Source of the DNA: a virus
Strand: one strand, 5' to 3'
Length of the DNA: 20,261 nt
Virus record (IMG/VR): IMGVR_UViG_3300024517_000138
Coordinates: 1-20,261 of that record
A program made the translations under genes and the position numbers. Under the pieces are notes generated by a model. It did no database searches. It was not told the origin of the DNA and was given only the letters and a program-made list of their open reading frames with translations. This document shows, piece after piece, positions 1-17,547 of the stretch (position 1 is its first letter; each line of letters starts with the position of its first letter).

Positions 1-90
1 CTTTGGTGAGTGGTGCCGCTTTGGTGAGGGGTGCCGCTTTGGTGAGGGGTGCCGCTTTGGTGAGTGGTGCCGCTTTGGTGAGGGGTGCCG
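1..90 (+). repeat. Five tandem copies of an 18-bp unit
   Basis: Five contiguous 18-bp units start at 1, 19, 37, 55 and 73. They are identical except at one base, where G or T switches the fourth codon of the encoded hexapeptide between GGG (Gly) and TGG (Trp). A sixth copy begins at 91 (CTTTG) and then diverges. The array probably extends left of the window. Because 18 is a multiple of three, gain or loss of units keeps the reading frame of the hexapeptide-repeat gene. Confidence 0.95.
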
Positions 91-355
91 CTTTGAGGGC
101 AAAGAAGGTGATACAGACCACGCGAGTCATAAACTACCATTTGTTGCTATGGGTGGTTTCGGATCAGAAAACAGAACCACCTACTTTTTCAATCTAAAGT
201 CAGGGATATTTGTTCGTTGTGGCTGTTTCTCTGGAACAATGGAAGAGTTTAGATTGAAAGTTAAAACCGAATACGGTAATTCCAATAATGGGAAGGAATA
301 CCAAATGATGGCTGATCTGGCAGTGATGCGGATTAATAACACGCCATTTAACTAG
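2..355 (+). CDS. FGxxC hexapeptide-repeat protein, 5'-truncated by window edge
   Basis: This open frame runs into the window from the left and ends at TAG 353-355, so the start codon lies outside. The first 30 residues are five copies of a six-residue repeat, FGEWCR or FGEGCR. After a short linker comes a globular tail beginning MGGFGSENRTTYFF, with a GCFSGTMEEF segment and an EYGNSNNGKEY segment. From memory, phage and bacterial proteins pair FGxxC hexapeptide arrays with just this kind of GCFxGTxxEF tail; their function is unknown. Six-residue periodicity is typical of left-handed beta-helix folds, so a beta-helical rod capped by the tail is a reasonable inference. The ATG at 149 is only an internal methionine. 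The frame starting at 3 (VRGAAL repeats) is its shadow. Confidence 0.7.
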   Translation, partial: FGEWCRFGEGCRFGEGCRFGEWCRFGEGCRFEGKEGDTDHASHKLPFVAMGGFGSENRTTYFFNLKSGIFVRCGCFSGTMEEFRLKVKTEYGNSNNGKEYQMMADLAVMRINNTPFN

Positions 356-14595: not shown

Positions 14596-15306
14596 ATGGC
14601 TACAGCTCAAGACATCATTGAACGCGCTTACAAACTAGCAAAGGTTACAGGTTTAGGTGAATCTCCCACTGATGAACAGATATCAGAGGGTTTAGTCTAC
14701 TTAAACGACCTGATTCAATCTTTGTCTAACGAATCATTAATGATTTATCAGAACGTACAGGAATCTATCACCTGTGACGGTTCTACTTCTTACACAATTG
14801 GCTCCGGCGGTGATTTAGATACTGTTCGACCTTTTGAGATTACAGGCGCGTTCTTTCGCATAAATGGAACCACGGTAGATAACCCTGTTGAGGTGATAAC
14901 CAAGGATGAATACGATTCAATCTCATTCAAGACCTCGACCTCCGACGCTATTGATTACTTGTACTTATATAATACTTATCCTCTGGCTGAGTTGTTTGTT
15001 TACCCCTTAGCACAGAACGGAACGCTGTTTATCACGTCTAGGAAGCCGCTCACGGGCTTTGCTGCTAGAACCACTACCGTAGCCCTACCTGATGGCTATG
15101 AGCCTATGCTGCGCTATAACTTAGCTGTGGAGCTAATGCCACAATATGGAACGCCTGCGAATATGGCTATGTTCCAATTAGTTGTACAGAACGCTAAGAC
15201 CTTAAAGGCCAATATTAAGATGGTTAACTCTAAGACTAAGATTGCGTCGATTATTCTACCTGTTAGCGGGGTACATAACCGCTCTAAGATCGAGAGGGGA
15301 TACTAA
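14596..15306 (+). CDS. Tail accessory factor, P22 gp4-like (236 aa)
   Basis: P22 gp4 binds below the portal after packaging and helps to seal the head. This product begins MATAQDIIERAYKLAKVTGLGESPTDEQ, followed by EGLVYLNDLIQSLSNE, the helical N-terminus typical of the gp4 tail accessory family, with PDGYEPMLRYNLAVELMP and an alanine/lysine helix (QNAKTLKANIK) in the C-terminal half. At 236 residues it is longer than P22 gp4 (166), as in many relatives. The start ATG lies 10 bases after the terminator T-tract with only a weak GGGTG site. It ends in a TAATG overlap with the cupin gene. Confidence 0.82.
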   Translation: MATAQDIIERAYKLAKVTGLGESPTDEQISEGLVYLNDLIQSLSNESLMIYQNVQESITCDGSTSYTIGSGGDLDTVRPFEITGAFFRINGTTVDNPVEVITKDEYDSISFKTSTSDAIDYLYLYNTYPLAELFVYPLAQNGTLFITSRKPLTGFAARTTTVALPDGYEPMLRYNLAVELMPQYGTPANMAMFQLVVQNAKTLKANIKMVNSKTKIASIILPVSGVHNRSKIERGY

Positions 15307-15776
15307 TGGAATACCTAGCTGAAAAAGATATTAATTGGAGTGATGGCCGCAGAGCTATTGTAGCTTTACAGACCACGATTGAAGAAGGTATTGAGAGTGG
15401 TGCATTTGAGAAGTATGAAGGAAAGCTAACACATCACTTTGCCCCTGGGTTATATGCTAGGGAGTTCTTCATGGAGGCGGGGAAGGTGGTTGTTGGCAAG
15501 ATCCATAAACACGCTCACGTTAATACTATTTCTAAAGGACATGTAGTCGTCTCTACTGAACACGGTGAAGACCCTATTGAATATGTAGCGCCTATTACTT
15601 TTGTATCCGTACCGGGCACTAAGAGAGCTGTACATGTATTAGAAGATACAATTTGGACTACTTATCACCCTACAGAAGAAACCGACCTCAAGAAGATCGA
15701 AGAGGATGTAATAGCTGAGACATTTGAGGATCTAGAGGTATTTCTCTGCTATGAGCAAATGGAGCGTTTAACATGA
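15306..15776 (+). CDS. Cupin-fold protein in the tail module (156 aa)
   Basis: After a short helical N-terminus, residues 45-120 show a single cupin barrel: GLYAREFFMEAGKVVVGKIHKHAHVNTISKG contains the metal-site HxH pair (H69, H71), and a second motif has VSVPGTKRAVH with P103, G104 and H110. E86 or nearby residues may complete the site. The TTYHPTEETDLKKIEEDV segment follows. Similar proteins occur beside podovirus structural genes, as I recall, with no established function. It overlaps both neighbours (TAATG and ATGA) in the gp4-to-ejection cluster, suggesting a role in virion assembly rather than metabolism. Confidence 0.75.
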   Translation: MEYLAEKDINWSDGRRAIVALQTTIEEGIESGAFEKYEGKLTHHFAPGLYAREFFMEAGKVVVGKIHKHAHVNTISKGHVVVSTEHGEDPIEYVAPITFVSVPGTKRAVHVLEDTIWTTYHPTEETDLKKIEEDVIAETFEDLEVFLCYEQMERLT

Positions 15777-16471
15777 GTTGGGTAGCAGCCGGTACAGCCG
15801 CTGTAGCTGTTGTCGGGAGTATGAGTTCTAGCAGTGCGGCGAAGAAACAAAAGAAGTCGAATAAAAAAGCTTTAGAGTTCCAGCGTAAAGTATGGGAGCA
15901 GCAAAGAAAGGACACAGCAACATACAGAAAGGGGGGAGAGGCTGCTCAAGCTAGACTATCCGGCTTACTATCAGAGGGTGGCGGGTTCGATAAGCGCTTT
16001 GGGGTTGATGACTTCGAAACAGAGCCGGGCTATCAGTTCAGAATGGAGGAAGGTGCCAAGGGTGTTGAAAGGGGTGCTGCTGCTAGAGGTGGCGCTTTGT
16101 CAGGTCGTGCCCTTAAGGCAATGGAGAAATACCGCCAGGGTTTTGCCTCTAACGAATACGGAAACGCTTATAACCGTTTTAATCAAGACAGAGGCCAGAA
16201 ATATAACATGCTAATGGGTCAGGTAGGGTCAGGGCTTAGGGGTGCCGGTATGGCTGCTGCTGCCAATCAAGCCTATGGCGCGCAGGGCACAAACCAGATG
16301 GTTCAGCGTGGAAATATAGGTGCGGATAAGTCTATAGGAATAGGTAATGCGATTAGCCAGGGTATTGCAGGCATGGCTAATAACCGGAAAGGTCAGGAAG
16401 GCCAGGATCAAAACACGGATAATAACCGGAAGAGGAATAACCGACAAGAAACTAACTGGTGGAACTATTAA
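15773..16471 (+). CDS. DNA ejection (internal virion) protein, gp7/gp14-like (232 aa)
   Basis: The start overlaps the cupin stop as ATGA. A hydrophobic small-residue N-terminus (residues 4-20) precedes a charged helix (23-50) and a conserved-looking core, PGYQFRMEEGAKGVERGAAARGG with SGRALKAMEKYRQGFASNEYGNAYNRF (residues 85-136). That core is typical of phage DNA-transfer or ejection proteins, here the P22 gp7/gp14 role. Such proteins travel in the head and form a conduit across the host envelope. The C-terminus is Gly/Ala-rich then Asn/Arg-rich (NNRKGQEGQ, NNRKRNNRQE). Its exact equivalence to one P22 protein is uncertain. Confidence 0.75.
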   Translation: MSWVAAGTAAVAVVGSMSSSSAAKKQKKSNKKALEFQRKVWEQQRKDTATYRKGGEAAQARLSGLLSEGGGFDKRFGVDDFETEPGYQFRMEEGAKGVERGAAARGGALSGRALKAMEKYRQGFASNEYGNAYNRFNQDRGQKYNMLMGQVGSGLRGAGMAAAANQAYGAQGTNQMVQRGNIGADKSIGIGNAISQGIAGMANNRKGQEGQDQNTDNNRKRNNRQETNWWNY

Positions 16472-16473
16472 TC

Positions 16474-17547
16474 ATGGCTAATGTAATGACAGTTTCCGAT
16501 AAGATCAGAATGCCTCGAATCAAGTCTGATCGTGAAATCCAGATGGAACAGGCTAAGGTTTCGAATGTTCAACAACGAAATGCTATGGCACAAGCTGAGT
16601 TTGATGAATACCAAGCTAATGCACCTGCTCGAAACAAAATGGCGCAAGCACAGCAGATGAAGGACGAAGAGTTCTTAGGTGGAGCCGAGCAAAGGCAGTT
16701 AGATCAGCAAAGAGCCAACACCGCCGCAGGAATGGGCCAAGATAAAGACGCTATGTCCTGGGAGTACGGCCAACTATCACAAGTAAACGATGAGGCTGGA
16801 TGGGATCGATACACAGCTAATCGTGAGAAGATGGGCTTTGATTCCACACACTTGCCAGATTCTTACAATCCAGAGCTAGTTTCTACTGCTCTAGAGGGTC
16901 TTGAGAAGGGTTTGGGTACTGCTGGTGGTGTCACTGCTAGAGAGAAGCTAGACCAACAGATATTAGAGGAAGAAGGTAGGCAGGGTCGCTATGAGGGTTT
17001 GAAAGGTAGCCAGCAGCTTGATTACATAGGCGAGGCGGAAGAGCTTAAAGCAGAAAGAAAAACAGTCGGTAAGCTAAGAGGTGAGGATATTGATAAGCTT
17101 GCGAGTCTTGAGGCTGGTATGCCAGGGCTTACGGAGGTTGCGGATAAGTTAGCCGCTCTTTCAGAAGTTGCTACCTTTACTAAGGTAGGTATGGCAAGGG
17201 ATGCAGCAGCAAGACAGATGGGAAAATCGACTGAAGGCGCAGAGGCTAGGGCTGAATTTATTGCAACTATCGACAACGAAGTGCTTCCTTTGTTGCGGCA
17301 GACATTTGGTGCTGCATTCACCGTTCCGGAAGGGGACGCGCTTAGAGCGACAATGGGCGACCCTAACCTAACCCCACAAGAGAGAAAGGCCCAGCTAGTG
17401 GCATTTATAGAAGGAAAGCAGAGAGAGGTAGCAAAATTAAAAGCTAAGGTTGGATCTCAGCCACAACAAGAATACACCGAAGGACAGATTGCTATACAAA
17501 ACGGAAATAGGTTCCAATACCAAAACGGTAAGTGGGTGCAACTCTAA
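16474..17547 (+). CDS. Internal virion / DNA ejection protein (357 aa)
   Basis: ATG 16474 is favoured over GTG 16459 because TGGTGGA (16457-16463) lies ten bases before it and the upstream codons overlap the previous gene. Residues 1-60 are a Gln/Arg-rich helix starting MTVSDKIRMPRIKSDREIQ. The middle is helical. Residues about 240-320 (EARAEFIATIDNEVLPLLRQ, then FTVPEGDALRATMGDPNLTPQE) match a segment I recognise from podovirus internal virion proteins. The C-terminus is a short beta motif (NGNRFQYQNGKWVQL). The position between two other ejection-type proteins supports a P22 gp20-like role, which is inference. Confidence 0.65.
   Translation: MANVMTVSDKIRMPRIKSDREIQMEQAKVSNVQQRNAMAQAEFDEYQANAPARNKMAQAQQMKDEEFLGGAEQRQLDQQRANTAAGMGQDKDAMSWEYGQLSQVNDEAGWDRYTANREKMGFDSTHLPDSYNPELVSTALEGLEKGLGTAGGVTAREKLDQQILEEEGRQGRYEGLKGSQQLDYIGEAEELKAERKTVGKLRGEDIDKLASLEAGMPGLTEVADKLAALSEVATFTKVGMARDAAARQMGKSTEGAEARAEFIATIDNEVLPLLRQTFGAAFTVPEGDALRATMGDPNLTPQERKAQLVAFIEGKQREVAKLKAKVGSQPQQEYTEGQIAIQNGNRFQYQNGKWVQL

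Follow-up and report, generated by a model that had tools for sequence, protein, structure and literature searches.

The window analyzed here is the entire IMG/VR record IMGVR_UViG_3300024517_000138, 20,261 bases long, and because its reading frames are open at both ends, it is a fragment. At its left edge, on the plus strand, lies a single tandem array (positions 1 to 95) with a period of 18 bases, 5.3 copies, 96% matches, and a Tandem Repeats Finder score of 176, compared to a best repeat score of 61 in 60 dinucleotide shuffles of the window. The five whole 18-bp units differ solely at the first base of codon 4, which is TGG or GGG, consistent with the proposal of an earlier sequence-only reading that the array recently expanded or is being homogenized. 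Translation from base 2 gives FGEWCR FGEGCR FGEGCR FGEWCR FGEGCR FEG and then a tail, in a frame that lacks an upstream stop and remains open to the stop codon at 353 to 355, encoding 117 amino acids. That reading had described a near-perfect, in-frame array cut by the window edge and read on into a globular tail, and both features were found. Its interval of 1 to 148 is correct for the array as far as position 95; the remaining ~53 bases encode tail.

Since the window is the whole record, the gene lacks its 5' part, and its true copy number is not given by the window. What is present, at positions 2 to 355 of the plus strand, is the 3' part of a solenoid gene (117 amino acids plus stop) that, judged by complete relatives, is missing its N-cap. 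These relatives begin upstream of the array with that N-cap, in agreement with the suggestion that the ATG at 149 is not the true start.

The FGxxC family and its predicted solenoid

The FGxxC phage solenoid family is defined here by four or more FGxxC hexapeptides that run in frame straight into the C-terminal domain, and by the N-cap MKxYTQxEFDALPxVDG..CPTGDYS. The window protein, with five such units followed by FEG and the tail, belongs to it by its repeats. Relatives were recovered from IMG/VR and a species-level genome set, on ~55 viral contigs and in a few bacterial MAGs. Complete genes encode an N-cap (MKxYTQxEFDALPVVDGxxQCPTGDYSxI), an array of 4 to 40 FGxxC[SR] hexapeptides, and a C-terminal domain; with degenerate units counted, the arrays range from 7 to 42 units, with a median of 17 (50 genes with both ends). 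Tails are of several kinds, including PHROG 20532, which is that of the window, a YWSFVYEPPFETxGKIYP kind, and a YPIIIY..LSIGCxNF kind. The second of these ends the arrays of L009, L141, L150, and L152. Several contigs, among them L007, L132, and L148, carry two arrays; at L148:5338-6833, two neighboring FGxxC genes of 37 and 25 units have almost no C-terminal domain.

Neither megablast against named phages nor a portal scan of viral contigs found close relatives of the whole phage, and 78 terminase relatives had no FGxxC array within the stretch covered. Named phages have portals up to about 42% identical to that of the window, and in one of them, MW202674, a gene ~6 kb upstream of the terminase encodes a GNAxV solenoid that ends in the tail domain of the window protein. 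Literature searches on phage hexapeptide or solenoid families returned nothing on the FGxxC family.

The +1 frame of the window array is also open (positions 3 to 197) and reads ALVSGA/ALVRGA. It lacks a stop in 55 of 59 family arrays and is often AxVxGA-like. The idea that FGxxC and GNAxV arrays are frame-shifted versions of each other was set aside, as this property of the +1 frame follows from the codon make-up.

In a set of 65 arrays with 971 units, Gly occupies position 2 in 92% of units and Cys occupies position 5 in 96%. Variability is greatest at position 4, where Gly, Trp, and Arg are the most frequent residues, and intermediate at positions 3 and 6; units were picked by Phe at position 1, any of four residues at position 2, and Cys or Ser at position 5, so that conservation there is partly imposed, while position 4 was left free. 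Within-array pN/pS for codons 1 to 6 was 0.00, 0.23, 0.93, 1.44 (1.23 to 1.77), 0.08, and 0.85, the values for codons 1, 2, and 5 being partly fixed by the choice of units. A fixed inner ladder combined with a variable residue facing outward would produce such diversity at position 4, as might mutation bias around NGG codons. The arrays are roughly charge neutral, with a median net charge per unit of -0.21 (0.0 in the window).

The AlphaFold2 model (L093 plus 22 relatives; mean pLDDT 94.4, pTM 0.84) places short strands every six residues, followed by the tail. When this fold was compared with solved structures, GlmU ranked first by Z score (13.9) but with an rmsd of 11.5, and right-handed helices and pentapeptide proteins came next, at Z scores of 8 to 10. 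The best Foldseek E value for the solenoid model was 0.03, and LpxA-like structures did not head its list. The gathering cutoff of the Hexapep family (PF00132) was exceeded in L135, L148, and L161; several relatives fell below it, and the truncated window protein was not listed. From these models and matches, the FGxxC array is confidently predicted to be a beta-solenoid, probably of the hexapeptide type, as the proposed beta-helix implied. The further idea that each FGE(W/G)CR unit makes one turn fits less well: a hexapeptide probably forms one face of a coil, three to the coil if the solenoid is of the left-handed hexapeptide type. Matches to CCCH zinc fingers were driven by Cys spacing, histidine being absent, and those to Cas5/Cas6 by the repeats. 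A defense-system library gave no convincing match.

A C-terminal domain carried by several kinds of solenoid

The C-terminal domain of the window protein (FEG...GFGSENRTTYFFN..VRCGCFSGTMEEFRLKV) is encoded at positions 92 to 352 of the plus strand. Residues 37 to 113 of the protein match PHROG 20532 with an E value of 6.7e-15, and relatives match it at 5e-5 to 8e-9. Modeled alone by AlphaFold2, the window tail is predicted to form four strands and two helices (pLDDT 88.8). There was no significant match of the window tail in the PDB; a methionine sulfoxide reductase match around the tail GCF (E value, 0.3) was not significant and is a lead only, and a PUR-repeat-like match (Z score, 5.4) was within noise.

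Searches with the tail also retrieved proteins with GNAxV repeats (L169 to L174, L178, L179, and L183) and with pentapeptides (L180, L181, L187, L190, and L191). Pfam confirmed the pentapeptides and assigned the YdcK repeats to PF18836. At L188:2650-3192, a Cys-triplet repeat (CSDCSYCRSCSS...) that matches no Pfam family precedes the same tail domain. A profile built from FGxxC tails alone retrieved GNAxV, pentapeptide, and Cys-triplet representatives and none of 10,000 shuffled sequences; the named phages that it found include BF766P1, phiAGATE, LWP01, B025, and CKA15. By these profile matches, one tail domain is carried on solenoids of four different repeat chemistries, each kind of solenoid with its own N-cap. 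The closest tail to that of the window by identity belongs to a GNAxV protein, phiRM10 gp34 (52% over 73 columns). The tail tree has six changes of solenoid kind, with a minimum of three, but the AU test does not reject a single origin for each kind (P values of 0.25 to 0.35), so we make no claim of repeated exchange. The tail is accessory: within one bacterial class, 5 of the 391 genomes have it.

These observations suggest a protein in which a short N-cap is followed by a rigid beta-solenoid, built from FGxxC hexapeptides, and then by a compact C-terminal domain. Residue 4 of the unit, predicted to point outward, is diversified, and Gly 2 and Cys 5 are conserved. The C-terminal domain may be the conserved part that acts or docks, and the solenoid would then be a rod, adjustable in length and surface, that presents it. 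The roles could instead be reversed, with the solenoid as the functional part, a length-variable surface for binding a host protein or nucleic acid in the manner of pentapeptide gyrase inhibitors, and the C-terminal domain a mere folding cap for the open end of any solenoid. Like a general cap, the tail always directly follows the last coil, and it does so on four repeat kinds; the diversified outward residue 4 suits a binding surface, and the authors of the CKA15 study compared CKA15_017 to pentapeptide gyrase inhibitors (PMC12282133). However, a cap should suit one cross-section, and pentapeptide and hexapeptide solenoids differ in theirs. The tail is also large for a cap, at about 65 residues with its own predicted fold and a conserved GCFxG and Tyr, and it is dispensable as a cap, since some FGxxC proteins end in a different tail or in almost none. 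The near neutrality of the arrays also sets them apart from DNA mimics. We regard the cap as the less probable role, though a serious contender.

Variation in array length

Near-identical relatives differ by whole 18-bp units, as the sequence-only reading had anticipated in proposing in-frame variation in copy number. These differences are taken from metagenome assemblies, where repeats can collapse. In two pairs (L091 and L096, L138 and L140), the genes are identical except for 90 bp, or five units, with a flanking identity of 99.7 to 100%. L130 and L133 have 6.2 kb in common at 99.9% and differ by ~19 units, and L093 and L102, which are 91% identical, have two separate single-unit differences. 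Because the changes are in whole units, the frame is kept, as it is in all four pairs. Fixed copy number with diverged units in every relative was not the pattern found. Array length would shift in this way presumably via replication slippage or unequal recombination.

The FGxxC array at L176:2530-3225 contains a frameshift, so that the N-cap and early repeats are read in a different frame from the later repeats and the tail; either the gene is broken or the assembly is in error.

Arrays contain more contig ends than expected (7 observed versus 1.5 expected; P of about 0.001; two of the 7 are both ends of one contig), and for this reason the left edge of the window is most simply an assembly break. 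The same excess bears on whether the apparent length variation is mostly an artifact, short reads having collapsed near-perfect arrays that in reality keep one length in each phage, and the near-identical pairs do come from metagenome assemblies. Some differences in copy number may indeed be assembly collapse. Those between L093 and L102 are the hardest to explain so, as single units differ at two places in diverged genes, and the spread of array lengths across the family is wide. We therefore consider a predominantly artifactual origin improbable; it would in any case affect the recent variation and not the architecture. Near-perfect arrays of this kind offer a natural system for studying how phages lengthen or shorten a protein rod while staying in frame.

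Genome setting, proposed role, and known systems

The window encodes a P22-like portal and coat protein, with a DNA-ejection protein further right. Two of its other genes drew our attention. A small protein encoded at 15306 to 15776, between structural genes, is grouped by PHROGs with tail fiber proteins (E value, 1.9e-37) and appears cupin-like by eye. Adjoining the DNA-ejection gene, positions 16459 to 17547 encode a 362-amino-acid protein whose residues 187 to 336 match an endolysin PHROG model (E value, 2.9e-26).

The solenoid gene lies nearly 5 kb upstream of the terminase, and its early location is inferred from that distance and from relatives. In named phages, solenoid genes occur among Gam, Rad52, and Nin genes (phiRM10), near RecT and an exonuclease (587AP2), near Gam and Sak4 (B025), and near erf and single-strand-binding genes (MW202674); in the metagenomic set, the neighbors are mixed DNA metabolism genes (Gam, NinG, RusA, dUTPase, and Dam). 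CKA15_017, the pentapeptide relative with the same tail in Listeria phage CKA15, lies in an operon (015 to 019) near the genome end, and the authors remark of the genome ends in general that they hold mainly genes peaking at 5 min (PMC12282133). The early and recombination neighbors, together with this timing, point to an early intracellular accessory protein.

On balance, we lean toward an early-region intracellular accessory protein, composed of the N-cap, the FGxxC solenoid, and the conserved tail, in which a length-variable, exchangeable rod presents the tail, most likely to a host target. The rod-borne domain would probably face that target in takeover or counterdefense. In this sense, the "antagonistic" half of the proposal that the array is an adhesive or antagonistic module may stand, as an intracellular host-takeover factor. 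More tentatively, one small effector or docking domain may be borne by solenoids that are interchangeable, tunable in length, and of four or more repeat types. Such proteins would form a modular, early, host-directed class whose rods change in length and in outward residues through the dynamics of tandem repeats.

The "adhesive" half fares worse. Beta-helices are common in tailspikes, and some tailspikes appeared in the fold comparison at Z scores of about 8 to 10, a level common to many solenoids, but it is very unlikely that the protein serves the virion in adhesion or receptor binding: the genes adjoin early, recombination, and small accessory genes rather than tail or fiber genes, that of the window is far from the terminase, and the window protein has no tail or fiber family match. 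Least credible is a hexapeptide acyltransferase, the annotation of several database entries, for which the six-residue periodicity and weak LpxD/LpxA matches among models and structures are offset by NCBIfam scores of about 22 or less against cutoffs above 200, no match for the window protein, and arrays without a conserved histidine. A pentapeptide DNA mimic of the MfpA/Qnr type, with A(D/N)LxX repeats and a strongly acidic surface, is likewise disfavored by the six-residue repeat and near-neutral charge, although some tail relatives do carry pentapeptides.

Phage solenoid proteins are scattered under unrelated names, including acyltransferase, polymer-forming cytoskeletal protein, pentapeptide repeat, and hypothetical protein. 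Since one tail occurs with four repeat chemistries, many of these proteins may make up one functional class, and the GCFxG domain could serve as a handle for finding what they do.

FGxxC proteins belong to a kind already known, the phage beta-solenoid proteins. They resemble the Hexapep left-handed beta-helix (PF00132; LpxA, LpxD, and GlmU) in their six-residue hydrophobic-G-x-x-small-x repeat, by which three relatives pass the cutoff, but have Phe and Cys where Hexapep has Leu/Ile/Val and Ser/Thr/Ala, and their units are near identical with no conserved histidine. YdcK-type phage solenoids (PF18836; PHROG 7964 and 5070), such as gp34 of Ruminococcus phage phiRM10, have the same C-terminal domain (identity with that of the window, 48% in the alignment and 57.6% across the matched portion), a six-residue repeat, and an early-gene position; their repeat, GNAxVYG, and N-cap, LGGYVEKEENL, are both unlike those of FGxxC proteins. 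Phage pentapeptide proteins (PF00805; Listeria phage B025 gp51 and CKA15_017) share a related C-terminal domain and an accessory gene on the early side but differ in their five-residue repeats, solenoid, and N-cap. In NeuO, variable repeats lie outside the helix and permit on/off switching. NeuO, from prophage CUS-3 (PMC3046976), is similar in being phage encoded, with variable tandem repeats and a left-handed beta-helix, whereas the FGxxC repeats would be the solenoid itself, and changes in them keep the frame.
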